A stretch of 43,048 bases of DNA from a virus, in IMG/VR virus record IMGVR_UViG_3300034142_000018, positions 1 to 43,048 of that record, one strand, 5' to 3'. The stretch's first letter is position 1. Each line of letters begins with the position of its first letter. Below the pieces are notes generated by a model, which was given only the letters and a program-made list of their open reading frames with translations, made no database searches and was not told the origin of the DNA. Of this stretch, positions 463 to 31,307 are shown one piece after another. Position numbers and translations under genes: made by a program.

Positions 463-492
463 TGTGTAGGTTATGGCGGCATAATCCGCACA
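463..492. promoter_or_regulatory. Dyad operator, site 1
   Basis: Imperfect palindrome: left arm TGTGTAGGTTAT, 6-nt spacer, right arm ATAATCCGCACA. It lies between the stop codon of the ejection-type gene and the SD (AGGAG, 496-500) of the fibre-like gene. CATAAT at 480-485 could serve as a plus-strand -10, but no good -35 is visible 17 bp upstream. Member of the seven-site family. Confidence 0.75.
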
Positions 493-506
493 CATAGGAG
501 ACACTC

Positions 507-1373
507 ATGCCATATAACGGCGTAGGCGGATTTGACCCCTTACCACCCCCGACGTATCCGGCAGTTGCGGGCGATACGATTCGGGCAGCTTACTTCAACG
601 CGGTGATTGACGATATTCGCGCGGGGCTGGCACTGACCTTGGTCCGGGACGGGCAAGCGCCGATTACCGGGAACGTGGACCTGACGAACCATAAGTTCAC
701 GAATGCGCTGAATGCTACGGCGAATCAGGAATTTACCACACTGTCGCAGACGGTAGCAGCTTACTTGAGCCGAACTGTTGACGTCTGGGTCTCTGACAGT
801 AGCGGCGCGAATCGGTTATTTTTTGCTTCAAGTGCCTCTACCTCCTATCGAGGGTACAGTGCGATCCCGCACAGGTTCATCGGCAACTCCGGCACCCTCA
901 TTGCGAACACCAATGACGATGGGCGTCTTACCGCTGGGGCCGACGCCACAGCCCCAGCGGACGTCACCCGACTTGGGCAGGTCAACGCTGCCATCGCTGT
1001 CGGGGTAACGACAGCCACGACCAACGCCACCACAGCTGCAACAAACAATGCAACTGCAGCTGCCGCGGCCGCAGCTCTTGGCGGCACTTCTCAGTCCTAC
1101 CAGGATGTATTCGCTTCTAGGGCGGCGGGGGTAACTTATACTAACTCCACCGGACGGCCAATTGTGGTCATCGCTACTGGGGTATCGAGCGGCGGTTCCC
1201 CTCAGCAAGGTAGTCTTACCGGAAGTGTGAATTCGGCCATAATCTACTATACCAGCCCTTTCTCGAACGCTGGTAATTACGAACATACCATCAGCTTTAT
1301 AGTGCCCATCGGGGCTACTTACTCTGTTGCCCTTGCCAACCTAGCCCTGAGCCGCTGGACAGAACTTCGTTAA
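507..1373 (+). CDS. Putative tail fibre / receptor-binding protein
   Basis: 288 aa. The N-terminal third (FDPLPPPTYPAVAGDTI and the following ITGNVDLTNHKFTN stretch) resembles the attachment regions of podoviral fibres. The centre (about 150-195) is a low-complexity Ala/Thr repeat that reads as a spacer or coiled coil. The C-terminus (about 195-288) is a compact Gly/Ser/Thr-rich beta-type domain that may be the receptor-binding head. It starts at ATG with AGGAG seven bases upstream, just after dyad 1, and is followed directly by the lysis cassette. No enzymatic motif is visible. The fibre role is inferred from composition and position. A second copy is at 40030-40896. Confidence 0.6.
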   Translation: MPYNGVGGFDPLPPPTYPAVAGDTIRAAYFNAVIDDIRAGLALTLVRDGQAPITGNVDLTNHKFTNALNATANQEFTTLSQTVAAYLSRTVDVWVSDSSGANRLFFASSASTSYRGYSAIPHRFIGNSGTLIANTNDDGRLTAGADATAPADVTRLGQVNAAIAVGVTTATTNATTAATNNATAAAAAAALGGTSQSYQDVFASRAAGVTYTNSTGRPIVVIATGVSSGGSPQQGSLTGSVNSAIIYYTSPFSNAGNYEHTISFIVPIGATYSVALANLALSRWTELR

Positions 1374-1382
1374 GGACCCGAG

Positions 1383-1562
1383 ATGCATGATACGCAGTTA
1401 TCCCGCGAGGAGCAGAAAAAGGTTATCAAGGAAGCCATCACGGAATGGCTGGATAACCAGATCATGAAGTTCGGCTGGAATGTGCTTGGATGGGGGCTGG
1501 CGGCAGCCCTCGCCGCAGTTGTATACTTTTCCCTGATTAGCCAGGGCTGGAGACACTCATGA
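1383..1562 (+). CDS. Small lysis-cassette membrane protein (holin/antiholin-like)
   Basis: A 59-aa gene. It starts at ATG 1383 with AAGGA about 7 bases upstream, overlapping the preceding stop region. The first ~30 residues are charged (Ser-Arg-Glu-Glu-Gln-Lys-Lys) and amphipathic. One transmembrane segment follows (about residues 34-52, VLGWGLAAALAAVVYFSL), then a short tail. Its stop overlaps the start of the muramidase as ATGA (1559-1562), so the two are probably translationally coupled. Position and shape fit a holin, antiholin or export helper for the endolysin; which one cannot be told. Second copy at 40906-41085. Confidence 0.7.
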   Translation: MHDTQLSREEQKKVIKEAITEWLDNQIMKFGWNVLGWGLAAALAAVVYFSLISQGWRHS

Positions 1563-2062
1563 ATTTTGACGATGCGTTCGAAAAGCTCCTGGGGCATGAG
1601 GGAGGGTACTCTGATGACCCGAAGGATCGTGGAAATTGGACGACAGGGAAAATCGGGCAGGGGGCGCTGAAGGGGACGAAGTATGGAATCTCCGCAATGT
1701 CGTATCCGCAACTGGATATTAAAAACCTCCGCGTAGATGAGGCAAAGGCGATTTACCTGACGGACTACTGGCTCAAGGCCGGGTGTGACTGCGTGCCGCC
1801 GGAAGTTGCGTTTGACCTATTTGATACGGCAGTTAACTCCGGGCCGAAGACGGCGGCGAAGTTGCTGCAGGCGGCGATCGGGGCTACGGTGGATGGGGCG
1901 ATTGGGCCAGCTACGTTGTTCACGTTACGGTCCTTCACCCCAGCTCGTTTCGTCGCGAGGTTTAACGGAGCGAGACTGCTGGCTATGACGAATATGACTG
2001 CCTGGGAAAGCCAAGGCAAAGGCTGGGCGCGTCGAGTGGCACAAAACTTACTAGGAGCTTGA
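1559..2062 (+). CDS. Endolysin: N-acetylmuramidase, GH108 family
   Basis: 167 aa. It hydrolyses peptidoglycan glycan strands at lysis. The N-terminus carries the glycosyl hydrolase 108 signature around H13-E14-G15-G16-Y17, with E14 the expected catalytic glutamate, followed by the usual DP..RGN and TKYGIS elements. The C-terminal half (about 85-165: ATVDGAIGPATL and the following helix) matches the peptidoglycan-binding domain that normally accompanies this family. No signal peptide is visible, so release should depend on the neighbouring membrane proteins. It overlaps the upstream small membrane gene by ATGA and is followed one base later by the 3TM holin gene. Second copy at 41082-41585. 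Confidence 0.88.
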   Translation: MNFDDAFEKLLGHEGGYSDDPKDRGNWTTGKIGQGALKGTKYGISAMSYPQLDIKNLRVDEAKAIYLTDYWLKAGCDCVPPEVAFDLFDTAVNSGPKTAAKLLQAAIGATVDGAIGPATLFTLRSFTPARFVARFNGARLLAMTNMTAWESQGKGWARRVAQNLLGA

Positions 2063-2063
2063 G

Positions 2064-2585
2064 ATGGACCCGATTACTATTGCAATGGGCTTGGCGCAGT
2101 TCGCCCCTGGGATCATCAAGTGGATCACGGGGAGTGAAAAGGCGGAGGCAGCGGCGGCGAAGGTTGTTGATATTGCAAAAGCTGCCACAGGACAATCGAC
2201 CGGGGAGGCTGCACTGATTACGCTAAAGGCCGATCCGAATGCAGTGATAGCTTTCCGCCAATCCGTCATGGCGAATGAAGCGGAACTGGACAAGGCGTTC
2301 CTGTTGGATCGGCAAAACGCCCGTGGGCGTGATGTAGCGATTGTGCAAGCCGGGCGGTACAATTGGCGGGCGGATGTGCTCGCGGTGTTGGCGGTCGGGG
2401 GATTGGTGTTGTGCGTGTTTTTCATCGCCCGTGATGCCGGATTGCCCGAGCGCGCCGTGAATGCCATCATGTTCGTGGCCGGGGTGTTGGCATCGGCGGT
2501 GCGGGACGTGTATGGGTTTGAGTTTGGGTCCAGCCGGAGTTCGCAGGTCAAAGACGGTACGATCTCCGAGCTGTCCAAACGATAA
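2064..2585 (+). CDS. Holin, GTA_holin_3TM-like
   Basis: 173 aa. The N-terminus is a weakly hydrophobic helix (about 5-21). A charged central region follows (AELDKAF, DRQNARGRD at about 73-90) that is typical of the 3TM holin family found in gene-transfer agents and podoviruses. Two clear membrane segments lie at about 104-122 (VLAVLAVGGLVLCVFFI) and 133-146 (NAIMFVAGVLASAV). It is the last gene of the plus-strand late arm, immediately after the muramidase, and its stop runs into the 2584-2606 terminator. Likely role: inner-membrane pore or export at lysis. Second copy at 41587-42108. Confidence 0.75.
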   Translation: MDPITIAMGLAQFAPGIIKWITGSEKAEAAAAKVVDIAKAATGQSTGEAALITLKADPNAVIAFRQSVMANEAELDKAFLLDRQNARGRDVAIVQAGRYNWRADVLAVLAVGGLVLCVFFIARDAGLPERAVNAIMFVAGVLASAVRDVYGFEFGSSRSSQVKDGTISELSKR

Positions 2586-2606
2586 CCTCAACCTTCAGAG
2601 GTTTTT
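2584..2606 (+). terminator. Intrinsic terminator at the convergence of the two arms
   Basis: Stem AACCTC / GAGGTT with an 8-nt loop, followed by a T-run (to 2606). It ends late plus-strand transcription and overlaps the last codons of the convergent minus-strand gene. The reverse strand also has the stem but lacks a T-run. Duplicated at 42107-42129. Confidence 0.75.
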
Positions 2607-3823
2607 AGCACTGTGCCATTCTGGGCCGTCGCAATGGCGGTTCCAGCGATCAGTGTGTGGGACGAACCTTCCTGGCGGAGGATGATATACCCGGCCCGCA
2701 CACACCCAGCCAACACGTCCTCGAAATCCCTCATCGACGGGAAGAATCCGTGAACGTGGCGATAGGCTTCCGCGTAGGCCACTTTTCCCTTGGTATGAAC
2801 AAAAGACACCAGCCGTTCGGCATACAGGCTGGTGTCGCTTCGTCCGATCTTTGAGAAGACGAACTGCATGTCGGGTTCGAGGTCCGTGACCATGGTGTGG
2901 GCGGTTTCGAGGTGGTCTGCGGTGATCTCGAGAGAATCGCCGGAGGACGCGGCAAGGACCATGGCGAGCTTGTGGATGTGGGTTTGTTTGCGGGCAATGT
3001 AGCCTCCAAAGCGTTCTGGGTCAAGGTTGGCCGGACGGGTGGTGTAGTGGGTTTCGTACCACTTCCGGCCCCAGGCAATAGCCCCTGGGGTTAGGACGTA
3101 TTCACCGATGAGCTGGCCGATGGAATTGAGGTCATCTACGAGTTTTTGCTCTATCTCGCCGAGGTTCTTAGGGACGTCGAGTCCTGGGTAGGCGACGTAT
3201 TTGGCCTTTGCGTCCGCATATACAAAAATCGTTCTCGAAGTAAATCCACCACCGATCATATACTCTGGGAAATTCCCCGCGATCCAAGCTGGGGTTGTGC
3301 ATGCAATAAGATTGATCCAGGGGTTCTGCACCGAATCTTTCCCAGAATGCTTGGTGGCTTTCTCGAAGCTGCCTTGCTTGCCATCCCACAAAGAAACCAG
3401 TAAATCCACCATCTCCTTGTCCTGCGGGTTCAGTAGGTTCCCAAATTCCGAGGATTCCAGGGTCATGGCTGACATAGGGCAGTATTCGCCATTGTACTCG
3501 AAAGCTTCCGTCGCTTCCGCAAACGCTCCGACAAGCGCTGGCCACGTTACTACGTCTGGGCCGAATTTGATCCCATCTACTCGACGGAGAAGGTTCATGG
3601 CAATGCCAGCTGTTGTTGACTTTGAAACAATCCCCGGGGGCGCCACCAGACATATGTAGAAATTCGGATACCACTTGAAATACGCTTGATCGATCCATAC
3701 TTTTCTCCTAAGTGCGCCGGCTACCGCGGAAACCCCCGCCCAGAAATACATGTGCCGAGGAGCTTCGCCGAAACTGGCGTAATCCATGAACGAAGTCAGC
3801 CAATCTTTATAATGTCGTGCCAT
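2588..3823 (-). CDS. DUF3987-type phage ATPase/primase-helicase-like protein
   Basis: 411 aa from ATG 3823 (GGAG seven bases upstream; an in-frame TTG at 3835 is a poorer start). It resembles DUF3987 proteins, which often accompany phage replication genes. A P-loop-like segment lies at residues 61-70 (APPGIVSKST), where the Gly before the Lys is replaced by Ser, so nucleotide binding may be weakened or atypical. The central part (SSEFGNLL, WDGKQGSFEKATKHSGKD, INLIACTTPAWI) is typical of the family. The C-terminal ~100 residues look like a winged-helix region. It is the last gene of the minus arm, downstream of the polymerase. Role in replication is inferred. A 5'-truncated second copy is at 42111-43048. 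Confidence 0.7.
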   Translation of the reverse strand: MARHYKDWLTSFMDYASFGEAPRHMYFWAGVSAVAGALRRKVWIDQAYFKWYPNFYICLVAPPGIVSKSTTAGIAMNLLRRVDGIKFGPDVVTWPALVGAFAEATEAFEYNGEYCPMSAMTLESSEFGNLLNPQDKEMVDLLVSLWDGKQGSFEKATKHSGKDSVQNPWINLIACTTPAWIAGNFPEYMIGGGFTSRTIFVYADAKAKYVAYPGLDVPKNLGEIEQKLVDDLNSIGQLIGEYVLTPGAIAWGRKWYETHYTTRPANLDPERFGGYIARKQTHIHKLAMVLAASSGDSLEITADHLETAHTMVTDLEPDMQFVFSKIGRSDTSLYAERLVSFVHTKGKVAYAEAYRHVHGFFPSMRDFEDVLAGCVRAGYIILRQEGSSHTLIAGTAIATAQNGTVLKTSEG

Positions 3824-3974
3824 GTGTGTCTCCAATAAGGCGCCTCAATATCGCATTGTTCTCGCGGAGGTTCCGGAGAACGCTTTCCCGTCGCCGATGT
3901 AGGGTTTTGGTAATGATATGCGACAGCGTAGGCCTCCATACTGACCTACGTTTGCGGAGTTGCCGCAGTTTCAT
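3807..3974 (-). CDS. Small Arg-rich protein coupled to the DNA polymerase gene
   Basis: 55 aa. Its ATG overlaps the polymerase stop as ATGA (3971-3974), and its 3' end overlaps the start of the DUF3987 gene in another frame by 17 bases, so it fills the gap between the two exactly. It is very basic (about a quarter Arg: LRQLRKRRS, HRRRES, LRRLI), lacks Cys and membrane segments, and could bind nucleic acid or the polymerase. I do not recognise a family. The stop-start overlap is the main evidence that it is real. Confidence 0.55.
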   Translation of the reverse strand: MKLRQLRKRRSVWRPTLSHIITKTLHRRRESVLRNLRENNAILRRLIGDTHGTTL

Positions 3975-6337
3975 TTACATTCGCCCCAAGACCTGTCTGA
4001 CATCTTGATCCCGATAGGAATGGTCAAGGGGTCAGAGTATGGCAAGGCGATTTCGGAAGCTGTGATAATAGCCTGGGCTAGGTGCGGCTTGGAAGTGGGG
4101 AACTGCCCGGCCAGGGAATCGTGGACCTGGAGGAGGATTTCGACCTCGGGCAGGGATTTGTCGATTTCTACATAGGCGCGATTGATGAGGCAGGCTACCG
4201 TGCTTTGAGGAATCCAGGCCGCGGCTTGGTTGAAAATCGTCCCCTCGATTCGGTCAAAGAAGTAGCAGCGATAGCCAAACACGTTCTGTACCATACGGCG
4301 CTTGAAGACCTGATCCTTGAGATCGTCCTGCCACTTTTTGATCCGTGGGAACTTTTCGAAATACCACCGCTGGGTTTTTTCGGCTTCATTGACAGACAGA
4401 CCAAGCCGCTCGGCAAGGCCCTTAGCCGTACCAAGGTAATTGGTTCCGTGGCAGAACGCCTTGAACAATTGACGGCGGGGGTCCTTCTTCGTGAGACTTG
4501 AATCATGATAGAATTCCTTCGCAACTTCGGTGTAGGGGTCCAGGCCTTCCTTGAGCATCCGTTTCATCTCCGGCTCATCAGCCTCCCAAACAACGATTCG
4601 TAAGTCTGCTGAACCGAGGTCAATGTCGAAAAAGGTATATCCTGGATCGGGTATAAAGAGACTGCGAACATTAGGAAGTTCGAGTCCGTTTGAGTCTCCA
4701 CCGTTAGGTATATTCTGCAGGTTGAGTCCGGTTCCAAACGCATTGGTTGAAGAGCTAAAACGGTATGTTTCCGTTCCAGCAATGTTGAAACTGCTTCGCA
4801 TTCGGCTATCAATGTCGAGAGGTGCGTTGACAAAAGTGCTGAGGAACACACCAAGAGACCGCAGCTCCTGTATTTTTCGGATAAGGGGTCGTAGGATAGG
4901 TTCGCGATCAGCGATGATAGAAAGTGCCTCATCATCGCAGGTGACAGTTTTTGTCTTTCGATTGAACTGTTGCTTTTGTCCGAATACTCCATAGAATAAC
5001 TCCTGCATCTGTTTCGGGGACTTGATGTTGACGGATTCCCCGAGGACGTCAAACATCCATTGCTCGCGCTTAGCAATCTCGTCCATAAGGGTCATGGCGA
5101 AAGCGGAACGCCGTGCGGTGTCGACACGAAGCCCACGATTCATGGTACGGAGGACGGGCCAGAACAGGGCTTGCTGGAAATCGTGAACAGGGCGGAGCTG
5201 CATCGCGTCAATTGTCCGCTGCTCAGTTTCATCGACTTCGTAAGTGATAACCGCGTCCTTGCAGTTATAGGACCAGAGTTGATCCTCGCCGGTTTTCGCG
5301 TCCCATTCTTTGCCTTCGTCCTTCCAGTATACGTGGTCCTCGCAGTACATGGAGGATAGGAAGTCAAGTCCCTTCTGCATGTTGGAAAAACAGACATGCT
5401 GGGAGAGCATGGTGTCGCGGACAAGATTGGGGAGGTAGTGGAGATGGCGCCAGAAGTACTGCGCGTCGTAGAGGAAGTTTTGGCCCAGGACGATGCAGTT
5501 GGGATGGGTGAGGATTTGGTAAAGCGCGAACATGAGGACGGTTTCTTCCTCCTCAGTCCAATAGCCTTCGAGCCGTTCGACGCACATCAGGGGGATGCAC
5601 AGGGCTTCCCGTTTTGACCACGCGAAACCGATGCAGGCAATGTGCCCTGCACGGGTTTCAATGTCGACTGCGAGCTTGAAGGGGGCAGCAGTAACGGCCT
5701 TGGCAATGACGGATAGATACTCCAGGACGGTAGAGAAATCTGGTCGGATTATGAAACGATAATCCACACATTTGAAATCTCGACTGTGCGAATGCCCCTT
5801 GGCCCGCCGCAGGTCCTGGAGGACGATCGGGCGCCATGCCCAATTGCGAAGGACGGCGGAGGGGGCGTAGGTCGGGATAACTTTGGGCTTGTAGTCCAGG
5901 GCTAGGTCGAGATCACACTCGAGCCGTGACCCACGCCATGACATAATGCCGGACTTGCCAGTCAGTGCCCACAGGCTGACGTTGCCGAAGGCGATGATGA
6001 CGTTAGGCCGGACCATCTCGATTTCCCGCTTGAGAAGTTCGAGCCCCTCCCACACGGGCGGCAGGCACATCTTGTCCCGAACGAGGCCGTGCTGGGGGGT
6101 AATGTCGCCCTTCCGCACGGGCATGAAGGAGGTCATGTCGTTACCGGGAGGTTTGACACGGACTACGTTGGTGATGAAGCACTGGTTACGGGAAATCCCG
6201 ATCTCGTTGAGCATGCGGGAAAGTTCCTGGCCCGCTGCGCCGACAAAAGGCTCACCACGGCGGACTTCCTCGTCACCTGGGGCTTCGCCGACGATCATGA
6301 TCCGGGCGGGTGCTGGGCCTGTAGGGGATATTTGCAT
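3971..6337 (-). CDS. DNA polymerase I (family A) with N-terminal UDG-like domain
   Basis: 788 aa. Residues 1-180 resemble family 4/5 uracil-DNA glycosylases: GEAPGDEEVRRGEPFVGAAG at 17-36. The usual Fe-S Cys of the KCRPP motif is replaced (VRVKPP, 59-64), and the normal HPS motif reads APS (158-160), so glycosylase activity is doubtful. The 3'-5' exonuclease starts at about 222 with VDIET. The polymerase domain has motif A DLGSADLR (Asp near 573), an O-helix region with RRQLFKAFCHGTNYLG, and motif C VHDS (Asp near 740), where the usual Glu of HDE is Ser. Both catalytic Asp are kept. This is the phage replicative polymerase. It is followed by the coupled 55-aa protein. Confidence 0.9.
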   Translation of the reverse strand: MQISPTGPAPARIMIVGEAPGDEEVRRGEPFVGAAGQELSRMLNEIGISRNQCFITNVVRVKPPGNDMTSFMPVRKGDITPQHGLVRDKMCLPPVWEGLELLKREIEMVRPNVIIAFGNVSLWALTGKSGIMSWRGSRLECDLDLALDYKPKVIPTYAPSAVLRNWAWRPIVLQDLRRAKGHSHSRDFKCVDYRFIIRPDFSTVLEYLSVIAKAVTAAPFKLAVDIETRAGHIACIGFAWSKREALCIPLMCVERLEGYWTEEEETVLMFALYQILTHPNCIVLGQNFLYDAQYFWRHLHYLPNLVRDTMLSQHVCFSNMQKGLDFLSSMYCEDHVYWKDEGKEWDAKTGEDQLWSYNCKDAVITYEVDETEQRTIDAMQLRPVHDFQQALFWPVLRTMNRGLRVDTARRSAFAMTLMDEIAKREQWMFDVLGESVNIKSPKQMQELFYGVFGQKQQFNRKTKTVTCDDEALSIIADREPILRPLIRKIQELRSLGVFLSTFVNAPLDIDSRMRSSFNIAGTETYRFSSSTNAFGTGLNLQNIPNGGDSNGLELPNVRSLFIPDPGYTFFDIDLGSADLRIVVWEADEPEMKRMLKEGLDPYTEVAKEFYHDSSLTKKDPRRQLFKAFCHGTNYLGTAKGLAERLGLSVNEAEKTQRWYFEKFPRIKKWQDDLKDQVFKRRMVQNVFGYRCYFFDRIEGTIFNQAAAWIPQSTVACLINRAYVEIDKSLPEVEILLQVHDSLAGQFPTSKPHLAQAIITASEIALPYSDPLTIPIGIKMSDRSWGECK

Positions 6338-6343
6338 GGTGGG

Positions 6344-6556
6344 TTACTTTGAGTGCAGCCAGTTAAAAAACCGGCGAAATAGGTAGCTGCGGACGAGGGA
6401 GATGATGGTGAAGATGAAGGTGATTGTGGCGTTTTGCATCCCGCTGGGGTAGAAGTCGAACAGGGGGTAGATGTACGCCCCCGCCAGGACGGAGAGGAGA
6501 AATGCGGCAAGGGTGCTGCAGATGACCTCGATGATGGACTGCTGGCGGGATTGCAT
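6344..6556 (-). CDS. Small two-TM protein, DUF7220-like
   Basis: 70 aa from ATG 6556, which overlaps the upstream stop as TAATG. It begins MQSRQQSIIEV, has two membrane segments (about 13-30 and 43-57) and ends in a basic tail with SLVRSYLFRRFFN. That order (SR..S..E at the start, S.vRsy..RR.FN at the end) matches a common uncharacterised phage membrane family. Function unknown; inner-membrane location likely. It sits between the Nmad1-like gene and the DNA polymerase. Confidence 0.7.
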   Translation of the reverse strand: MQSRQQSIIEVICSTLAAFLLSVLAGAYIYPLFDFYPSGMQNATITFIFTIISLVRSYLFRRFFNWLHSK

Positions 6557-7110
6557 TAGAGGGATCTCCAACCGGGTTCGTCGGCGAATTTCCAGGCACT
6601 TATAACTTTCCCCTTCCATTCGTAACCTTCTAGGGGCTTGAGACTGTCTACGATACTTCTCCAAAGATAACAATCATCCTTTGTAGATAAGACTATATTA
6701 TCAGGCGACTGGCGAGTACTTATATGATGCCAGGGCATGAGTAAGATTTTTGACATCGTAGGGGCTGGGACGGCCTGTGGCATAGCCATCTCAACAGCAG
6801 ACTCTGCAACCAACGCTTTCAGCAGCAGACAATAATTAATCAAATCATCAATTCGTCCTTCGATCGGTTCGCTGCTTTTACGAACTTCCCCCTCCGCTTC
6901 GGTTTTGATATAGGTAGCAAGAGAGTCATAATGCTTGGACAGGTAAATCATCAGGACCTGTTTCGGTGTGCAACCAGTTAACTTTGCCCCGCGATGAAAG
7001 TTTGCTAAGCGGTCACCGTTGCCGGCGTACTCTCCACCTTTGACGACTAGGAGTTCCCGGCAAGCAGTGAAGGTTTGGTCAACGATCTTGGAAAATTGGT
7101 GTTGGTTCAT
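6556..7110 (-). CDS. Nmad1-like (MazG-related helical) protein with C-terminal extension
   Basis: 184 aa. Residues 1-105 carry KGGEYAG, DRLANFHRGA, LSKHYDSLATYI and EPIEGRIDDLINYCLLL. This all-helical pattern is seen in the nucleotide-modification-associated domain 1 group and resembles MazG-like NTP-binding folds with Glu/Asp metal ligands. Residues 110-184 are not recognised. The start overlaps the upstream stop (7107-7110) and the stop overlaps the next start as TAATG, so it is part of a tightly coupled string. A role in handling modified or unwanted nucleotides is inferred from the family. Codon use around 6640-6740 is slightly more AT-rich than its neighbours. Confidence 0.6.
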   Translation of the reverse strand: MNQHQFSKIVDQTFTACRELLVVKGGEYAGNGDRLANFHRGAKLTGCTPKQVLMIYLSKHYDSLATYIKTEAEGEVRKSSEPIEGRIDDLINYCLLLKALVAESAVEMAMPQAVPAPTMSKILLMPWHHISTRQSPDNIVLSTKDDCYLWRSIVDSLKPLEGYEWKGKVISAWKFADEPGWRSL

Positions 7111-7481
7111 TTTGGTAGTCTTTTGACTTTGTAAACTGTTAAGGTTTTGCCGACAGCGCGGAGGCCGAGGGCTTCGAGTGCACGGGGTCCTGGGTTGCTT
7201 TTTGTGCCGTTACGGAGTTCCCGGAGGTAGCTGTAACCTATCCGGGTTTCTCTGCTAGCTTCCCGCGCCCCTTCGTAGAACTGGATCAAGGCTTTAACGT
7301 GATCCTCAATGGTGGTGATGGCGTTGAGCTTTAACTCATAGGGCTCCGGCTTGAATATCGGTCCGGGCTTGTAGTTAGGGCCTCTAGGCCGGCCAACAGG
7401 TTTCTTCGCCGGGGGGTCTGGGTTCGGATAACTCCCGCCGATCCATACTGTTTTCAGATCAGATGAGCGAGGGTTGTTCAA
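7107..7481 (-). CDS. DNA-binding-type protein (AT-hook-like segment plus HTH-like C-terminus)
   Basis: About 124 aa. Start uncertain: the frame is open back to an ATG at 7682, but that would overlap the methyltransferase by 220 bp. TTG at 7481, with AAGG upstream, gives a 23-bp overlap. It has a basic Pro-rich hook (KKPVGRPRGPNYKPG) and then a helical region (ALIQFYEGAREASRETRIGYSYLRELRNGTKSNPGPRALE, shown at 7145-7290) typical of Cro-like HTH proteins. It is one of only a few candidates in the genome for a regulator that could bind the dyad sites. No biochemical role can be assigned. Confidence 0.6.
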   Translation of the reverse strand: MNNPRSSDLKTVWIGGSYPNPDPPAKKPVGRPRGPNYKPGPIFKPEPYELKLNAITTIEDHVKALIQFYEGAREASRETRIGYSYLRELRNGTKSNPGPRALEALGLRAVGKTLTVYKVKRLPK

Positions 7482-8841: not shown

Positions 8842-9099
8842 GGGAAGTCCAAGTAAGAATGCCCAGCGGGCGCCGGGCGGGTGGTTTTTAGGTGTGGGGG
8901 ATAGGGCGTGCCGGGACGGAAACCGGGGGCCACGCATGGCGGCGTGCGGGGGTGGGTGTGGGTATGACCGGGTGGTTTAAATCGCCCATGGGGGCCGGGA
9001 TACATACACACATTTGTCACCTCGGGCAATAGCCTCGATCGTTTAGGGGGATGGCGCCGCTGGATAAGCCCCCAGCGGCCCGGGCAACACTGCGCGGAC
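8842..9099. other. Intergenic region upstream of the methyltransferase gene
   Basis: 258 bp with no convincing gene. On the minus strand it holds a GC hairpin (GCCGCTGG / CCAGCGGC, 9056-9079) downstream of the 9100-9408 gene, with no T-run. It also holds a single half of the dyad sequence (minus-strand TGTGTATGTATC, around 8999-9010) preceded by GTGACA. The second half is absent at the normal spacing, so this is at best a degenerate site. Confidence 0.5.
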
Positions 9100-14939: not shown

Positions 14940-14974
14940 GGGGGTTTCCTGGTATGCGGGGTGTGGTGGGCATG

Positions 14975-15010
14975 TGTGTATATTATGCGCGGATAACGTA
15001 CACACGTCAA
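14975..15010 (-). promoter_or_regulatory. Dyad operator, site 2, inside a sigma70-type promoter
   Basis: Dyad 14975-15004 (TGTGTATATTAT, 6 nt, ATAACGTACACA; 10 of 12 positions pair). On the minus strand TTGACG (15005-15010), 17-bp spacer and CATAAT (14982-14987) form a good promoter whose spacer and -10 are covered by the dyad. It would drive 14939 and downstream genes, and binding to the dyad would block it. Confidence 0.8.
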
Positions 15011-16786: not shown

Positions 16787-16992
16787 TATTCCCCTTCCTC
16801 CCAAGCCGTAAGGCTCAACACCAAACTGGCCGGAATCCCGATCAGGTGCAGCAGCAACAAAAACATGGCACGGAAGTTCTCAGCGTTGCCAGTCCCGACG
16901 GGCCTCCACCAACTTTCCCCAGTACCAAGCCAGAGCAGGGCGGAGAAGGTTAGCGCGAGGGTGATGATGGCGAGGATGGTTAGCTTGAGCAT
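16786..16992 (-). CDS. Small two-TM membrane protein
   Basis: 68 aa from ATG 16992. Segment 1 at about 3-22 (KLTILAIITLALTFSALLWL) and segment 2 at about 43-60 (MFLLLLHLIGIPASLVLSL), with a short exposed loop containing WW and a short acidic tail (AWEEGE). Likely inner membrane. The start overlaps the end of the upstream gene. It could be an early host-takeover or superinfection-exclusion protein, but nothing in the sequence decides this. Confidence 0.6.
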   Translation of the reverse strand: MLKLTILAIITLALTFSALLWLGTGESWWRPVGTGNAENFRAMFLLLLHLIGIPASLVLSLTAWEEGE

Positions 16993-17186
16993 GGCTTGTC
17001 CCCTTTTGCGGCATCCACTTTTGCAAAATACTCCCGCATCAACCCCATCAAAAACCCTTGCCAAGCCCCGTGCGGCACCTTTTGCTCGAGTTCGGAATAC
17101 AGCATGAGGTCAACCCTGGCGGCAATGTCCTCCGGGAAGGAAAGGTTCTTCCGCACTGGCCGCATGATTTTCTTAGGCTTTGGCAT
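16980..17186 (-). CDS. Small basic RHH-like phage protein
   Basis: 68 aa from ATG 17186. A basic head (PKPKKIMRPVRKN) leads into LSFPEDIAARVDLMLYSELE, then a Gly-Ala-Trp turn and a helix (GFLMGLMREYF). The strand-helix-helix pattern resembles ribbon-helix-helix DNA-binding proteins, and the sequence type is common in phages. Overlaps neighbours on both sides. It is a secondary candidate for binding the dyad sites. Confidence 0.65.
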   Translation of the reverse strand: MPKPKKIMRPVRKNLSFPEDIAARVDLMLYSELEQKVPHGAWQGFLMGLMREYFAKVDAAKGDKPCSS

Positions 17187-17686: not shown

Positions 17687-18235
17687 TCAGAACTTCCATT
17701 CCGTTGCGTGCGCCATGATCCAGCCCTTGCTATCCGCGCAACTTGCGCAGGTCTTGACAGGGTAATCAGCGATGACCGTTTCATTCGGCAATGCCGCTTG
17801 GGTGGTTTGTTGTTGCTGCCAGCGGAAACTATCACGTAGGTGGCGGTGGCGCTGGCGGATCATGAGCTGGGTGAACACGGTGTAGGAAGTTCCGCATCCG
17901 CAGGAAAACCGGGAGAACTGACCGACATTCGCCACGTCCAGCCATTCGTGTTTGGCCTCCCATGCCGCGATGCGCTCGGCGTCGGCCCGACGTTCCTCAG
18001 CGGTGATGCCGCCCCGCTTGAGCCGTTCGCGGGAGAGCTTGGCCTCGGCGGTTTCCTTGATTGTCGTGAGGGATTCGGCGAGCAGGGCGTTGAGGTCATC
18101 GAAATCGTCTTCGCGCTCAGCTTCCGGTTCGGGAAGCGCCGCATCCGGCCGCGGCTTCCGATTCGGCGTTTCGAGCAGGTCATTGAGGTCCGCGTCTTGC
18201 TCAAGCTCAAATGCGTTCGGGGTATTGTGTGGCAC
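17687..18235 (-). CDS. Early zinc-finger-like protein, unknown function
   Basis: 182 aa. The acidic N-terminal part (about 8-60) has repeated DLNDLLE / DDLNALLAE blocks. A charged coiled coil follows (KETAEAKLSRERLKRGG). The C-terminal half holds CGCG (FSRFSCGCGTSYTVF) and CASC pairs about 50 residues apart with an RQRHRHLRD segment between, suggesting one zinc site. First gene after the dyad-3 promoter, so it is probably expressed early. No family recognised with confidence. Confidence 0.65.
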   Translation of the reverse strand: MPHNTPNAFELEQDADLNDLLETPNRKPRPDAALPEPEAEREDDFDDLNALLAESLTTIKETAEAKLSRERLKRGGITAEERRADAERIAAWEAKHEWLDVANVGQFSRFSCGCGTSYTVFTQLMIRQRHRHLRDSFRWQQQQTTQAALPNETVIADYPVKTCASCADSKGWIMAHATEWKF

Positions 18236-18290
18236 GAGGTGTCTCCGGTGCGTGGTGGCATTGCGTGTCCGGGATGGATGGTTCGCAATA

Positions 18291-18326
18291 TGTGTATATT
18301 ATGCCATCATAACCCACACACGTCAA
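18291..18326 (-). promoter_or_regulatory. Dyad operator, site 3, inside a sigma70-type promoter
   Basis: Dyad 18291-18320 (TGTGTATATTAT, 6 nt, ATAACCCACACA). On the minus strand TTGACG (18321-18326), 17-bp spacer and CATAAT (18298-18303) form a promoter with the same geometry as site 2. It would drive the 18235 to 15028 gene string. Confidence 0.8.
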
Positions 18327-18563: not shown

Positions 18564-19142
18564 TCAAACTGCCAGATCGTCCAGCTCACCTAACAACGCA
18601 TCGGTGTTGACCTTGCTACCCTTATTCGCCTTTTCCGATTCGATTTTCTCGATCGTGGGCTTGATCTTGGGGTTGTTGCGCAGGGCAACCTTTTCCGCGT
18701 GGGTCTTGCCGACCAGGAAGGTTTTGATCTGTTCCACGGTCTTGCCGTAGACTTCAACCAACGCCTTAACCAAAACCGAAGTCCCGGCCAACCCGTTCGT
18801 TTCCTTGCGCTGGGTCCAGTCGCCGTTATACAGCCGGTCGATCAGCTCATCAATCGCAATCACACAATCTTCCACGTCATCCAGACCGGCGATCTCGTCA
18901 CCCAGCTTTTGCTCGGCGCCGTGGGCAGCGAACTTCGCCATGAGGTTAGCTGGCACGGTGAACAGGCGGGTGGCGCCGTTGCGGAAGTCCAGGCGAACTT
19001 GCACTTGACCATCTTCCGTGATCGAAGCGGACTTGAGCAGCTTGCGCTTGCCGGCGAATTCCACGATATGGGGACGATCAGGCGTGCTGTCTTCCATTGT
19101 CACGGTTTCGATTTGGGGTTCTTGCTTTTGGGTAGTAGCCAT
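18564..19142 (-). CDS. Early protein, paralogue A
   Basis: 192 aa from ATG 19142 (GGAG eight bases upstream). The first ~55 residues are variable. Then come FRNGATRLF, AHGAEQKLGDEIAGL, IDRLYNGDWTQR, LVKALVEVYGKT, TFLVGK, LRNNPKIKPTIEKIESEKA and a tail VNTDALLGELDDLAV. The same blocks in the same order are found in the 21309-21833 product, so the two are diverged paralogues. It has its own strong promoter (19242-19269) and terminators. Abundant early protein likely; function unknown. I considered a nucleoid- or replication-associated role because both copies flank the origin-like element. Confidence 0.75.
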   Translation of the reverse strand: MATTQKQEPQIETVTMEDSTPDRPHIVEFAGKRKLLKSASITEDGQVQVRLDFRNGATRLFTVPANLMAKFAAHGAEQKLGDEIAGLDDVEDCVIAIDELIDRLYNGDWTQRKETNGLAGTSVLVKALVEVYGKTVEQIKTFLVGKTHAEKVALRNNPKIKPTIEKIESEKANKGSKVNTDALLGELDDLAV

Positions 19143-19241
19143 GGTTTTTCTCCAGATAGGCGTTGGCAGGCAATTGTGGGTTGATCGACGGTCCGCTAGG
19201 GGTGCTTGCCGGTATGCCCCAAACACGGCGTTGATGAATGG

Positions 19242-20900: not shown

Positions 20901-21037
20901 ATGGAATGGGCCGGGGATACGTGGGTGGCGAGCTGGTCATGAAAACCGCGCCACGGGCCGGGAAACGGGGTTGGCGGGGCATTGGGAAACGGGTGGTTTG
21001 CCCGGGAAACGCCCGAGCTGCCCGCCCCCGCCCGATA

Positions 21038-21067
21038 TGTGTATGTTATGGATTCATAACCCGCACA
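21038..21067. promoter_or_regulatory. Dyad operator, site 4
   Basis: Left arm TGTGTATGTTAT, spacer 6 nt, right arm ATAACCCGCACA. It lies between the terminator at 21087-21113 and the origin-like element. No TTGAC-type -35 is visible on either strand, so this copy may act as an operator, not a promoter. Confidence 0.75.
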
Positions 21068-21086
21068 TACACCGCCCCCACGAGCG

Positions 21087-21308: not shown

Positions 21309-21833
21309 TCACCCTTCCAATTCCGCGAGCAAATCATCCGCGTCATCACCGGGTTTGGCAGATTCCGCACGGATCTCCGCGATCACGGCGGCGACCTTCG
21401 GGTTTTTCCGCAACGCCGCTTGTTGCTTATCATCCAACCCGTCGAGGTATGTACGCAAATCCCCTTCCGTCTTTTTCGGGTACATGCGAACCAGGGCGCG
21501 GAACAACAATCCACCTGCACCGGCGCCCGAGCCCCCTTCCCGTGTCTTATTCCACTGCCCCGACACCAACCGATCAAACACTTCCTTCACCGCGTTGTAT
21601 TTGTCATCCGTGCTAGCCGCCCGGCCCGTGTCCGTATTCCGCGAAATCGCAGCGGCATCGACCAACTTCTGCTTCAACCCGTGCAGCAACGCCTGTCGCG
21701 CCACATCCGCATCTAATTGGCCGACATAAAGTTCCAGGGACCGGCCATTGTCAAACGTCAATTTAAGCCCATGATCGTTATTGTTAGGGCCTACCAGGAT
21801 CGCGGTCGAAATCGTTGATTGTTTAGTAGCCAT
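21309..21833 (-). CDS. Early protein, paralogue B
   Basis: 174 aa. Blocks shared with the 18564-19142 product: FDNGRSLEL, LHGLKQKLVDAA, FDRLVSGQWNK, LLFRALVRMYPKK, TYLDGL, LRKNPKVAAVIAEIRAES and an acidic end DDADDLLAELEG. A Gly/Ala stretch (GGSGAGAGG) interrupts the middle. It has an extended -10 promoter (21883-21891) and a terminator downstream. Together with paralogue A it brackets the origin-like element. Function unknown. Confidence 0.75.
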   Translation of the reverse strand: MATKQSTISTAILVGPNNNDHGLKLTFDNGRSLELYVGQLDADVARQALLHGLKQKLVDAAAISRNTDTGRAASTDDKYNAVKEVFDRLVSGQWNKTREGGSGAGAGGLLFRALVRMYPKKTEGDLRTYLDGLDDKQQAALRKNPKVAAVIAEIRAESAKPGDDADDLLAELEG

Positions 21834-22133: not shown

Positions 22134-22615
22134 CATCATTCCCCTATCACTATCGAACCAGGCCCATCCCGTTTCGTAGTCTCTATTGTGACCGCTGATT
22201 GCCATCCACCTATAGGGTAAACCCTCGATTGCCTAATTATTTTCACCGTTGCGGGCACGCCACACCCAGGTTCAATGGAAATTTTTCGCTACCGGCCTGC
22301 TACCAAGACCATGGGGGGTGGGCCTGCGGCAGGCGGGGGTGCGCTGCGCGGGGTGTTTAGTCGTATACCACCTCCCCGTGCGTGGCCGATTTTTGACTCT
22401 CATCCCCTGACGACGGATTAGAAGGAAACGAATTGGAAGGGGGATGGTGGTTGACCACGATTTCCGGGGATACCCCTTTAACCTTACTGAATCACAAGTG
22501 ACTCTAAAAATTGGGCAGATTATGGTTTCATAACATACACAACTTCCCTGCGCAATTCGTGCTTGACGGACCTATACCGCACCGCGAGACTGGCCGGAAC
22601 AGAAAAGGACCAAAA
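22134..22615. other. Divergent control region between the early and late arms
   Basis: About 480 bp without a convincing gene. It contains dyad 5 (22512-22541), a near-palindrome GAATCACAAGTGACTC (22488-22503), TTGACC at 22451, a GGGG-ATA-CCCC inverted repeat near 22467, and a short AGGGT/ACCCT inverted repeat at 22214-22225. No complete sigma70 promoter with both boxes stands out on either strand, though transcription of both arms should start here. Confidence 0.5.
22512..22541. promoter_or_regulatory. Dyad operator, site 5, upstream of terminase
   Basis: Left arm TGGGCAGATTAT (weaker), spacer 6 nt, right arm ATAACATACACA (strong). About 75 bp before the small terminase start. Most degenerate copy of the family. 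Confidence 0.6.
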
Positions 22616-24887: not shown

Positions 24888-24903
24888 TTCGAAAGGAATT
24901 ATC

Positions 24904-26175: not shown

Positions 26176-26181
26176 CCTACC

Positions 26182-26574: not shown

Positions 26575-26624
26575 CCCCCGCAAGGCAGTCCGGCCCACTC
26601 CCCTACCTCTAATCACGCAGCCCC

Positions 26625-28718
26625 ATGACTGACGAAACAACCCCCCTCTCCCCAGAACAGTCGGCCTCCCTCGTCTCCAAGTGGATGAAGGAGTACGACG
26701 CTGCGAAGAAGCGGGAAAAGACGTTCCGGGCTGCATCAGCAAAAATCGTCCAACTATACGAGGGGGATGAGAAGACTGACTTCCAGTTCAACATCCTTTA
26801 CTCCAACACCGAGACTCTGGCCCCAGCGCTGTACAACAGCATCCCGCGGGCAGTGGTTGATCGTCGCTTCAAGGACGAAGACAAAATCGGTGGGATGGCG
26901 GCGAAGATCACTCAGCGCACGCTGGAATACCTCCTCGATGACGGCATGGCGGAATACGCCAGCTTCGATGATTTGATGAAATCCGCGGTGCTGGAAGCTC
27001 TCGTCCCTGGCCGCGGCCTCACCCGGTTCAAGTACGACGCCAGTATCAAAACTGAGGAAGCGGCAAACCCCACTGACGACGCAGACTCCCCACCTCCGGT
27101 CGAAACCGTCGAGGGCGAAGTCGTGTGTGGGGAGGAAGTCCCTTGGGATCGTTTCTGCCACGGGTATGCGAAAAAGTGGAAAGACGTCCCTTGGGTGGCA
27201 TTTGACCACTTCATGGACAAGGGGGAACTCGTATCGAACTTTGGCGAGATCGGAAACCTCGTCCCTGTCGCCGAATCCGCCTCCGAAGATGACGAAAGCG
27301 GAAAATCCGACGAGGGGCTCAAGGACACCAAGACCGCCGCTGTGATCGAAATCTGGGACAAGCAGACGAAAAAGGTCTACTTCTTTGCCCGGTCTTATCC
27401 TGATGCGCCGGTTAAAGTTGTGGACGATCCCCTCGGCCTGACCGGGTTCTTCCCCAATCCCAAGCCTCTGACCTTCACTCAGAAGATCTCCACCCTCACG
27501 CCTGTTCCCTTATACACCTTCTACGAAGAACAGGCGAAGGAACTCAACGCAATTACCCTCCGCATCAACAGGCTGATCCGGGCCCTCAAGGTCCGCGGTC
27601 TGTACGACGCCACTGTCGAAGGTCTGGACAAGGTCCTCTCCGCTGATGACAACGTTCTCATCCCAGCGGAAAATGTCGCGGCACTACAACAAGGCCAATC
27701 TCTGGAAAAAGCCATTTGGCTGTTCCCGATCGAGAAGCTGATCGTTGTCCTCCAGCAGCTCTACCTCCAGCGTAATCAAGTCAAGCAGGTCATCTACGAG
27801 ATCACCGGCATCGCCGATATCATGCGTGGCAGCTCCTCCGCCAGCGAAACCCTCGGCGCGCAGGAGATCAAGAACCAATGGGGCACCTTGCGGCTCAAGC
27901 GCTCGCAAAAGGAAGTTGGCCGTTACGCGCGGGATTGCCTGCGCATCATGGCGGAAATCGCTGTGTCCAAGTTCAGCGAAGTCACCCTCAAAGGCATGAC
28001 GGGGCTGCAAATCCCCTCCGGCGAGGAAAAGGCGCAAGCCCAGCAAATTCTCGCCGCTGGTCCGCCGATGGGAGCTGACCCCAACATGCAACCTCCGCCC
28101 GAGCTGCTCGAACTCGCCCAAGGTCCTTCCTTCACCGAACTCCTCGACCTCCTCCGCACGGACACCAACCGCAGCTACCGCATCGACATCGAGACAAACT
28201 CAACCATCGATGCCGAAGCCACTGAGGACAAGCAAAACGTCGGGGAACTCCTTAACGCCCTTGCCCAATACCTCAACGGCATTCAGCCCCTGGTCGAATC
28301 CGGCAGCCTGCCATTCGAGGCCGCACAAGGCATGATGCTAGCCATCGTTCGCCGTTTCCGTTTCGGCCCTGAACTCGAAGACCAGTTGAAGAAGATGAAG
28401 GCACCAACCCCCCCGGCCGATCCAAACGAGGCCAAGAACGCCCAGGCTATGGAGTTGGGCAAGCTTGACATGCAGGCCAAGCAAATGGATAATCAGATGA
28501 AGCAGGCGCAAATGGCACAGCAGGCGGAAATTGCCCAAATGCAGCTCCAAATCGCACAACAAGAGCACCAAATGAAGATGGCGGAATTGGAGCAAAAAGG
28601 CCAGCTGGCGGTTGCCGCCCACCAGCAAAAGATGGAAGCGATTTCCATCCAAGCGGCTGCGGCCAGGCAAACGGCGCAAATCGCAGCTGCGAAACCGGCG
28701 CCTGCAAAATCTGTGTAG
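26625..28718 (+). CDS. Portal protein
   Basis: 697 aa, of P22/podovirus portal length. The N-terminal half has FNILYSNTETLAPALYNS and the DRRFKDEDKIGGMA region that are typical of large podoviral portals. The middle has an acidic insert (about 145-165 and 210-235). Then come FYEEQAKELNAITLRINRLI and an ITGIADIMRGSSSASETLGA element. The last ~100 residues are a Met/Gln/Ala/Lys-rich coiled coil, the barrel-like extension. It forms the dodecameric vertex for DNA entry and tail attachment. The stop codon lies inside dyad 6. Confidence 0.88.
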   Translation: MTDETTPLSPEQSASLVSKWMKEYDAAKKREKTFRAASAKIVQLYEGDEKTDFQFNILYSNTETLAPALYNSIPRAVVDRRFKDEDKIGGMAAKITQRTLEYLLDDGMAEYASFDDLMKSAVLEALVPGRGLTRFKYDASIKTEEAANPTDDADSPPPVETVEGEVVCGEEVPWDRFCHGYAKKWKDVPWVAFDHFMDKGELVSNFGEIGNLVPVAESASEDDESGKSDEGLKDTKTAAVIEIWDKQTKKVYFFARSYPDAPVKVVDDPLGLTGFFPNPKPLTFTQKISTLTPVPLYTFYEEQAKELNAITLRINRLIRALKVRGLYDATVEGLDKVLSADDNVLIPAENVAALQQGQSLEKAIWLFPIEKLIVVLQQLYLQRNQVKQVIYEITGIADIMRGSSSASETLGAQEIKNQWGTLRLKRSQKEVGRYARDCLRIMAEIAVSKFSEVTLKGMTGLQIPSGEEKAQAQQILAAGPPMGADPNMQPPPELLELAQGPSFTELLDLLRTDTNRSYRIDIETNSTIDAEATEDKQNVGELLNALAQYLNGIQPLVESGSLPFEAAQGMMLAIVRRFRFGPELEDQLKKMKAPTPPADPNEAKNAQAMELGKLDMQAKQMDNQMKQAQMAQQAEIAQMQLQIAQQEHQMKMAELEQKGQLAVAAHQQKMEAISIQAAAARQTAQIAAAKPAPAKSV

Positions 28719-28741
28719 ATTATAGAACCATAACAGACACA
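28712..28741. promoter_or_regulatory. Dyad operator, site 6
   Basis: TGTGTAGATTAT, 6 nt, ATAACAGACACA. The portal stop TAG lies in the left arm and the next start codon is only 3 bases after the right arm. No room remains for a separate SD, so the downstream gene depends on this element or on coupling. Confidence 0.75.
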
Positions 28742-28744
28742 ATC

Positions 28745-29179: not shown

Positions 29180-29187
29180 GAGTTATT

Positions 29188-30249
29188 ATGCCTGGGGAAT
29201 TCGAGTTTGATATGTCGTCCGCTGTTGGTGAAATCTCCAGTGGACTTGGTTTTGACACTGACACTGATGGAGCAAATGATGCAAACGACGTCGATCTTTC
29301 TGTTGATCCTATCCCTTCTCCTGCTGATTCTGGGGGTGGCGCTGGGGATATTCCTGGCCAACCGCCTGCAGGATCAAGTCCTGATGGAGACCCCGCTGCC
29401 GACGATTCCGGTAATCCTCCCGCCGGGAGTGACGCCGCCATCGATCCCCTGGCAATTGCGCCTAAAACTTGGCGCAAAGAAGCTGCTGATACGTGGGCAA
29501 CTCTCCCTGCTCAAGTTCGGCAAGAAATCCTAAAGCGGGAAGACGACATCTTCAAGGGGATCGAAGGCTACAAGTCCGAGGCCGCGTATGGCAAATCCTT
29601 TCGGACTGTCCTCGACCCTTTCCTTCCCGCTCTTCGCCAGCATGGCCTTGATCCGGTCGCTCAAGTCGGGCACCTGATGACAGCGCATCACACGCTGGCT
29701 CTTGGCACACCTGAGCAAAAGAACACCCTGTTCCGTCAAATCGCTGCCGATTACAAGATCGATCTCGCCACCTTAACTCCCGCCGACGAACCTTCTTTCA
29801 TCGATCCGGCAGTCAAGGCCTTGCAAACGGAAGTTCAACAACTACACTCGAAACTATCGGCGGGGGAGCAATCTCGTCTAGCCCAGGCCCGCGAACAGCA
29901 GACCAAAGCTATCGAGGCCTTCGCCGCCGATCCCGCAAACCCTCACTTCGAAGACGTTGCCAACGACATGGTGACCTTGATTGAAAAAGGGGTTTGCTCC
30001 ACGTTGCAGGAAGCTTACGAAAAAGCCATCTGGACCAACCCCGCTGTCCGTACCAAGGAACTCACCCGCCAACAAGCGGAGGCTTCCACCAAGGCACGAG
30101 AAGCGGCGGAAAAGAAGGTCGCAGATGCTCGGAAACTGACTGCAGCGAATGTGCGGACGAAAGCGAAAAGTGGGAGTGCTACGACCCCGCTGGGAAGCAT
30201 GGACGACACGCTTGCAGAAACTCTGGCTACCATAAACAGCCGGGCGTGA
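29188..30249 (+). CDS. Scaffolding-type protein
   Basis: 353 aa. The first ~85 residues are an acidic Gly/Ser/Pro/Asp-rich disordered arm. A conserved-looking block follows (PKTWRKEAADTWATLPAQVR, QEILKREDDIFKGIEGYK) that is typical of podoviral scaffolds. The rest is helical and Gln/Ala/Glu-rich, ending in a basic stretch (KKVADARKLTAANVRTKAK). It should guide capsid assembly and leave the prohead. It directly precedes the capsid gene. A second frame within its 5' part encodes a possible membrane protein (29279-29533). Confidence 0.85.
   Translation: MPGEFEFDMSSAVGEISSGLGFDTDTDGANDANDVDLSVDPIPSPADSGGGAGDIPGQPPAGSSPDGDPAADDSGNPPAGSDAAIDPLAIAPKTWRKEAADTWATLPAQVRQEILKREDDIFKGIEGYKSEAAYGKSFRTVLDPFLPALRQHGLDPVAQVGHLMTAHHTLALGTPEQKNTLFRQIAADYKIDLATLTPADEPSFIDPAVKALQTEVQQLHSKLSAGEQSRLAQAREQQTKAIEAFAADPANPHFEDVANDMVTLIEKGVCSTLQEAYEKAIWTNPAVRTKELTRQQAEASTKAREAAEKKVADARKLTAANVRTKAKSGSATTPLGSMDDTLAETLATINSRA
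29279..29533 (+). CDS. Possible overlapping membrane protein inside the scaffold gene
   Basis: 84 aa in another frame, starting at the second of two ATGs (29279) with GGAG six bases upstream. It has one strong membrane segment (residues 6-26, FLLILSLLLLILGVALGIFL), then a Pro-rich part (TPLPTIPVILPPGVTPPSIP) and a basic end. That TM plus Pro-rich layout recalls some lysis accessory proteins. It could equally be a by-product of the low-complexity scaffold arm. Low confidence. Confidence 0.3.
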   Translation: MQTTSIFLLILSLLLLILGVALGIFLANRLQDQVLMETPLPTIPVILPPGVTPPSIPWQLRLKLGAKKLLIRGQLSLLKFGKKS

Positions 30250-30282
30250 ACTTAACATTTTCAGCGAAACTAAGGAACAATC

Positions 30283-31272
30283 ATGGCATCTCCCAATGCA
30301 ATTTTCACGGAACTGGTAACCACCACGTTCCGCAAGCACTCCAAAGACATCAAGGACAACGTCAGCAAGAATAACGCCTTGCTGGCTCGGATCAACGCCA
30401 AGGGCAACAAGCGCAAGGAAGACGGCGGACTGACAATTGTCTCTCCCCTCGACTACGCCGCGAATTCCACCTACCAGCGCTATTCCGGTTATGACATCCT
30501 GAATATCGGCGCGAGCGACACCATCTCCGCTGCTGAGTACCAATGGCGCCAGATCGCCATCAACGTCGTGGCTTCCGGCATGGAACTCCGCACGAACTCA
30601 GGCGAATCGCGAATCATCAACCTGGTTAAGGCCCGGATGAAGAACGCCATGCGCACGTTCAAGAACAATTTCTCCGTTGACGTGTACAGCGACGGCACCC
30701 TGCCTAACCAAATCGGCGGCCTGCAAGCCCTCGTAGCAGACAACGGTCTGGGCACAGTTGGTGGTATCGATTCGTCTGCCTGGGCTTTCTGGCGCAACAT
30801 CGTGCAGTCCGCAGCCGCCCCTCTCCAAGGCGGTGCCGCAATCACCCCGTCAGCCACGACGATTGAATCGTTGATGCTGCCCCTGTGGCTGGCCTTGACT
30901 CGTGGCGATGACCAGCCCGACCTGATCGTTGCGGATACCAACTACTTCACCTTCTTCGAAAACTCCCAAGTTTCGTTCAAGCGTTACACCTCCGACGGTT
31001 CGTCCGCTACGGGTGTCAAGGCTTCGGGTGGTTTCGTGTCGTTGAAGTACAAGACCGCTGACGTGATCTATGATGGCGGCTCCGGTATCCCCACGAACCA
31101 CATGTATTTCCTGAACACGGACTACATGGACCTCGTGGTGCACAAAGACGCCGATATGGAGATCATGGACGAGATGAAGCCTTACAACCAAGACGCAGCC
31201 ATTGTGCCAATCTTGTGGATGGGTAACCTCACCACCTCCAACCGCAGCCTGCAGGGCGTCCTGAAGGCTTGA
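30283..31272 (+). CDS. Major capsid protein
   Basis: 329 aa. It begins MASPNAIFTELVTTTFRKHS, then has IVSPLDYAANSTYQRYSGYD, an A-domain region with FKNNFSVDVYSDGTLPNQIG, and a C-terminal stretch VHKDADMEIMDEMKPYNQDA followed by WMGNLTTSNRSLQGVL. This N4/podovirus-like capsid layout, with the scaffold upstream and a strong GGAAC-type leader, identifies it. It builds the icosahedral shell. The stop codon is six bases before dyad 7. Confidence 0.88.
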   Translation: MASPNAIFTELVTTTFRKHSKDIKDNVSKNNALLARINAKGNKRKEDGGLTIVSPLDYAANSTYQRYSGYDILNIGASDTISAAEYQWRQIAINVVASGMELRTNSGESRIINLVKARMKNAMRTFKNNFSVDVYSDGTLPNQIGGLQALVADNGLGTVGGIDSSAWAFWRNIVQSAAAPLQGGAAITPSATTIESLMLPLWLALTRGDDQPDLIVADTNYFTFFENSQVSFKRYTSDGSSATGVKASGGFVSLKYKTADVIYDGGSGIPTNHMYFLNTDYMDLVVHKDADMEIMDEMKPYNQDAAIVPILWMGNLTTSNRSLQGVLKA

Positions 31273-31277
31273 TGAGT

Positions 31278-31307
31278 TGTGTGGGTTATCGAACCATAAC
31301 CCACACA
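31278..31307. promoter_or_regulatory. Dyad operator, site 7 (perfect)
   Basis: TGTGTGGGTTAT, 6 nt, ATAACCCACACA: all 12 positions pair. Followed by TTTT, so as RNA it could also be a terminator after the capsid gene. It precedes the cement-like gene by 31 bases. Confidence 0.8.

Follow-up and report, generated by a model that had tools for sequence, protein, structure and literature searches.

Genome-wide double-box dyads and a candidate ribbon-helix-helix regulator in a family of uncultivated 40-kb phages

The viral record IMGVR_UViG_3300034142_000018 from IMG/VR, analyzed here over its full length of 43,048 nucleotides (hereafter the window), carries eight copies of a dyad that we interpret as the operators of a phage-encoded transcription regulator, a predicted ribbon-helix-helix (RHH) protein encoded at 16980-17186; we assign this interpretation a probability of about 0.72. 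The initial annotation of the sequence had described seven dyads sharing the pattern TGTG-N4-TTAT-N6-ATAA-N4-CACA. All seven are found, six of them exactly (463, 14975, 18291, 21038, 28712, and 31278) and that at 22512 with one mismatch (TGGG). An eighth site at 5741-5770, with two mismatches, lies within the DNA polymerase gene (3971-6337, minus strand) at a position kept in relatives, and the match at 39986 is the same site as that at 463, owing to an overlap of the window ends (1-3525 and 39524-43048). Dinucleotide shuffles searched with up to three mismatches are expected to yield 0.02 matches, and no shuffle reached nine. All eight sites are present, each once, in the sister contig G001 (39,525 bp). 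The sites are not all strictly intergenic, as had been described for the first seven: the one at 28712 shares 7 bases with the end of the portal gene, including its stop codon, and the added one at 5741 is coding. The sites and the genes discussed with them are as follows.

Site 1, 461..494 (39984-40017 in the repeated end): flanked by g37732 and a tail-fibre-like gene (507-1373), ending 12 bp 5' of its ATG; at the same junction in 11 of the 12 family genomes
Site 2, 14973..15006: 3' of the helicase gene, covering the minus-strand promoter TTGACG-N17-CATAAT ahead of g14715
Site 3, 18289..18322: covering the minus-strand promoter TTGACG-N17-CATAAT ahead of g17687, with the RHH gene further downstream
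Site 4, 21036..21069: 3' of g21309, ahead of the next early genes
Site 5, 22510..22543: at the early/late divergence, upstream of the small terminase gene, with the late-promoter-like sequence GCTTGACG approximately 18 bp downstream
Site 6, 28710..28743: overlapping the portal stop codon, just ahead of g28745; present in the window, G001, ctMlz233, and G003
Site 7, 31276..31309: a few bases past the stop codon of the major capsid protein gene; in 12 of 12 family genomes
Site 8, 5739..5772: within the coding sequence of the DNA polymerase, near residue 194-195; in 10 of 12 family genomes
RHH gene, 16980..17186, minus strand: predicted ribbon-helix-helix protein of 68 amino acids, the best candidate binder
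g17687, 17687..18235, minus strand: conserved early protein, first gene after the site 3 promoter
g18564, 18564..19226, minus strand: highly conserved early protein, the query used to gather the family
g21309, 21309..21833, minus strand: by appearance a paralog of g18564, with site 4 at its 3' side

The dyad is a property of the whole phage family, in a form specific to each genome. Portal homologs led to 56 viral contigs, and an alignment of g18564, used in place of a single-sequence helicase query that returned two loci only, led to 79. For detailed comparison, we used 12 family genomes, namely the window and 11 divergent relatives with portal proteins 42-60% identical; among deposited records, the nearest is MW202489.1 (ctMlz233), the genome of an uncultivated phage. 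The literal motif of the window is present in the sister contig and in no other relative searched, and exact matches elsewhere among all viral contigs are isolated and single (L061, L062, L065, and L066), approximately the chance level that we estimate for 16 fixed bases. Such a search alone would mislead, because divergent relatives carry motifs of their own. When the repeated palindrome of each genome was sought by expectation-maximization from dyad seeds, all 12 proved to have their own 34-bp dyad in 6-9 copies, mostly scoring 25-40 bits with the next match usually at or below 12, and the search objective reached 108-194 in real genomes versus 28-48 in randomized ones. The initial annotation had named relatives that keep the genes and lose the sites as the pattern that would speak against it; the literal motif follows that pattern, and the genome-specific search contradicts it. 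The core common to all 12 genomes is TTA-N8-TAA or a close variant, and the outer ten bases are genome-specific.

Across the wider family, copy number ranges from 6 to 13 dyads per genome, and approximately 34 of 47 near-complete genomes have convincing dyads. None was found in the distant contigs G026, G039, G040, G042, G044, G048-G050, G052, and G053, which may have a different architecture. The relative G022 (L187 and L188) has an RHH gene and seven copies of a strong dyad with AAAAT in place of TTA at the core, possibly a shifted specificity. The cultured Microcystis phage Mel-JY34 (PP438425.1) encodes homologs of the RHH protein and g18564 and has six dyads of 35 bp, one base longer, at 1675, 9138, 16381, 25808, 35377, and 44036 (L265), including one past the capsid gene and one downstream of the g18564 homolog. 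Its motif set was chosen among several candidates by score gap and position and is weaker evidence than the family core.

The positions of the dyads are constant between genomes, while all copies within one genome change sequence jointly. In all 12 family genomes, a dyad lies 3-20 bp past the capsid gene stop codon, another in front of g17687, and a third 3' of g21309; the sites ahead of the tail-fibre-like gene and 3' of or near the helicase gene are each kept in 11, and those upstream of the small terminase gene and within the polymerase gene (near residue 195) in 10. Fixed positions combined with concerted sequence change are the pattern to be expected of operators that follow one co-evolving protein.

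Within the polymerase gene, both boxes of the site are read as codons. In most relatives the encoded peptide is RP(D/E/S/Q)Y-x-F-x-x-RP(D/S/T/Q)(Y/F), with RPDY...RPDY in some, and in the window it is CVDY-R-F-I-I-RPDF, matching the TGTGTGG box of this genome. Because the protein reading follows the box of each genome, operator and codons appear to constrain each other at this site. By reading, the N-terminus of the polymerase resembles a uracil-DNA glycosylase-type domain followed by an exonuclease domain, and the operator falls just after the former.

Each site consists of two 10-bp boxes with centers 24 bp apart and A/T triplets on either side of each box, for a total of approximately 40-42 bp. 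The triplets immediately outside the boxes (-1 to -3) are 83-95% A/T across 312 sites from 39 genomes, mirroring the inner TTA. The sites are symmetric dyads, and the boxes themselves are quasi-palindromic in many genomes, for example TCCGCCCGGA and TGTGCGCACA. At the polymerase site, a second scoring dyad lies exactly 24 bp further on in G012 (L081; 21719 and 21743) and G016 (L083; 28619 and 28643), which suggests a three-box array. G003, G009, and ctMlz233 have weaker matches with this 24-bp offset. Where the initial annotation had proposed one dimeric regulator, the single protein stands, and the two boxes 24 bp apart point to probably two dimers per site.

Several sites are placed directly on promoters. 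At a single exact offset from the dyad, TTGAC was counted 11 times versus 0.7 expected, in each case followed by N17 and a -10-like hexamer inside the far half of the dyad; the window sites at 14975 and 18291, where TTGACG-N17-CATAAT had been correctly noted and lies on the minus strand, are two of these. A (G)CTTGACA-like element follows the dyad at the early/late divergence in most of the genomes shown. Given the overlap of sites with early sigma70 promoters and the late-promoter-like sequence that follows one of them, a transcriptional regulator is the most likely binder, and we consider transcriptional control quite probably the main role of the dyad system. The site 3 promoter is followed by g17687 and, further along the same strand, by the RHH gene, an arrangement from which autoregulation of the RHH gene is probable. 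The earlier proposal of a regulator that controls early promoters is supported by this exact operator-promoter overlap; any role at the late-gene junctions or within the polymerase gene is more conjectural.

Two binders had been suggested, an RHH-like product and a helix-turn-helix (HTH)-like product at 7107-7481. There are genomes that carry the sites and lack the HTH-like product, and its matches in relatives are short open reading frames that overlap the end of a methyltransferase gene; we rejected it. The RHH gene is present in 43 of 47 near-complete genomes, and the other four are contigs covered in their first 40 kb only. The RHH protein of ctMlz233 is UOF77856.1, and that of Mel-JY34 is XAI96452.1, encoded at 3939-4178. 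An AlphaFold2 model of the monomer (36 sequences, pLDDT 84) has an extended segment at residues 10-17 and helices at 19-29 and 41-61, in keeping with the strand-helix-helix layout expected of a short RHH chain; the RHH strand can pair only in a dimer, and the model is of a monomer. The predicted base contacts are R12, N14, and S16 (in R-K-N-L-S-F-P), preceded by the basic N-terminal arm MPKPKK.

The RHH candidate is favored by the strongest column association with box sequence. The predicted base-contact residues vary strongly among genomes. Among 3313 alignment columns from 16 conserved proteins, RHH column 84 (equivalent to Arc Q9) ranks first in association with box sequence and column 86 (equivalent to Arc N11) ranks 6-10, and the core-side RHH columns 85, 87, and 89 rank low. 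Among genomes with E or D at column 84, box position 4 is G when column 86 is K (7/7) and C when it is N (7/7; p=0.0006), and GG occupies box positions 8-9 in 16 of 19 E/D genomes versus 4 of 20 others (p=9e-5), in Fisher tests that ignore shared ancestry, which inflates their values. The K-group genomes are not closer to each other, with 57% g18564 identity among themselves and 61% to the N group. The three S-N-S genomes all share GCGCAC, and the contact residues of Mel-JY34, R-N-S, are the same as those of the window. This statistical association would tie alternating strand residues to box sequence as RHH specificity expects, and on the evidence of sequence we regard the RHH protein as very likely the binder of the dyads. 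Synteny and co-variation together lend strong support to the earlier idea of a phage-wide regulon of one protein and its operator dyads.

Several observations weigh against this interpretation. In addition to the inflation of the Fisher values, the contact columns were picked after the first 12 genomes had been viewed, and in the 27 genomes kept apart from forming the idea, two columns of other proteins outrank column 84, which is 3rd of 2251, and column 86 is 76th. Foldseek with the RHH monomer model matched no RHH structure, small monomer models being hard to match, and Pfam RHH_5 matches one family member at an E value of 0.09. The match to the Arc profile is weak (E value 0.27), though in the expected register (K-N-L-S-F-P / F-N-L-R-W-P); a match to the EndoAI antitoxin has an E value of 0.39. 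Most sites have no obvious promoter, only some genomes show the exact overlap with a promoter, and in G013 and G014 the operator of the g17687 region lies upstream of the promoter.

From the site architecture and placement, we infer how an RHH regulator might act. Each 10-bp box would probably receive the beta-ribbon of one RHH dimer in the major groove, and the minor groove at the A/T triplets (outer TWA and inner TTA) would probably accommodate its basic N-terminal arms, which read MPKPKK, MARPKK, or MPRGR. With rising protein levels, the regulator would occupy the early sigma70 promoters at sites 2 and 3 and repress them, including, at site 3, the promoter that drives its own operon. At the early/late divergence, where it would sit just upstream of the late promoter, it could activate or gate late transcription, and at gene junctions and in the polymerase gene it would probably serve as an elongation roadblock or tuning point.

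The same RHH protein could instead use the sites for genome organization, that is, segregation, compaction, replication, or packaging, in the manner of centromere-binding RHH proteins, with promoter overlap being secondary. The distribution of the sites all round the circle, up to 13 of them, at promoterless junctions and in the polymerase gene, is in keeping with this alternative, as is a ParB N-terminal domain fused to an N6/N4 DNA methyltransferase (7459-8937, minus strand) in all family genomes checked. We consider it unlikely, however, as sites lie exactly over early promoters and upstream of a late-promoter-like sequence, no ParA was noticed among the proteins read, and centromere sites are usually clustered. 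Binding of the dyads by another phage protein (the ParB-methyltransferase, g18564, g17687, or the small terminase) seems to us somewhat less plausible still. All of these candidates are conserved in the family, and an association with the motif is seen for some of their columns too, but the top column overall is a predicted RHH contact residue, and the strongest other columns, in a PD-(D/E)XK nuclease, the methyltransferase, and the helicase, follow the same phylogeny.

Two further alternatives are very improbable. The dyads could fold as transcribed RNA hairpins (terminators or elements for processing or stability), and some lie between co-transcribed late genes. However, the primary sequence is common to the sites of one genome, two window sites cover -35 and -10 elements, and no long T-runs were seen after the window sites. 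The RNA stem is rendered unlikely by a re-dealing test over the 312 sites in 39 genomes, in which the two halves of a site pair slightly less well than half-sites re-dealt within the genome (z of approximately -3.4); we rejected the hairpin on this test, which extends to the family the initial observation that the arms lack compensating changes. The A/T core would also suit captured sites of a host regulator such as CtrA (TTAA-N7-TTAA), and in Alphaproteobacteria there are known cases of phage promoters under host control (PMC9437464). We rejected this possibility as the outer boxes vary by genome, tracking a phage residue, and the geometry is unlike that of CtrA.

The window ends overlap by approximately 3.5 kb and are identical there apart from 25 mismatches near the start of the overlap (the 20 listed all fall within its first 125 bases). 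At approximately 39.5 kb, the genome is either circular or circularly permuted. A prophage repressor role is not supported, as a prophage search of 84,980 genomes of bacteria and archaea found no relative of g18564 and the scanned proteins of the window included no integrase that was noticed. Several early proteins, g14715 among them, end with a common acidic motif like DxLLxxLED.

Overall, sequence comparison points to a self-contained, fast-diverging control system in uncultivated 40-kb phages. If this is right, a regulatory circuit is legible in approximately 40 genomes from sequence alone, with position fixed, the operator free to change, and a contact residue tracking it; it would be a natural case of one protein and eight or more sites, approximately, changing together, and of an operator that constrains the amino acid sequence of a polymerase. 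The residue associations would then amount to a partial RHH recognition code, in which an acidic first contact goes with GG/CC and a second contact of K or N goes with G or C, respectively, at position 4. A function is also suggested for a small unannotated protein family that is present in a cultured phage, Mel-JY34. More tentatively, and rather doubtfully, this may be a lytic phage family whose fixed-position, whole-genome RHH operators, one of them in polymerase codons, diversify so that co-infecting relatives do not cross-regulate, an immunity-type recognition without lysogeny.

Among known systems, the Arc repressor of phage P22 is an RHH protein like our candidate, and its register gives the contact positions used here, with sequence similarity that is not significant; Arc acts at one operator, in contrast to the many sites described here. 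The C1 repressor of phage P1 has operators dispersed over the genome, but these are asymmetric, the protein is unrelated, and the phage is temperate. A literature search found no paper on a phage operator system of the present kind. AvtR of AFV6 and SvtR of SIRV1 are small RHH regulators of archaeal viruses that repress their own promoters, and AvtR, with eight potential genome sites conserved across its genus, can both activate and repress (PMC5569661). They operate with archaeal RNA polymerase in archaeal viruses, and AvtR, a monomer, contains two RHH motifs; the system described here belongs to tailed phages and has paired palindromic boxes and an operator sequence that diverges in concert between genomes. 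The double-box, fixed-position form with concerted divergence is not reported in the text consulted on AvtR and the stoperators. The stoperators of Cluster A mycobacteriophages are similar to our sites in that one repressor acts at many dispersed sites, both at promoters and within transcribed regions, and the motif diverges with repressor distance (PMC6550527, PMC9283540). Unlike the stoperators, which are asymmetric 13-bp sites in up to approximately 30 copies, mostly in one orientation and in temperate phages, the dyads described here are symmetric double sites of approximately 40 bp in 6-13 copies, paired with a different kind of protein in phages that show no sign of lysogeny.

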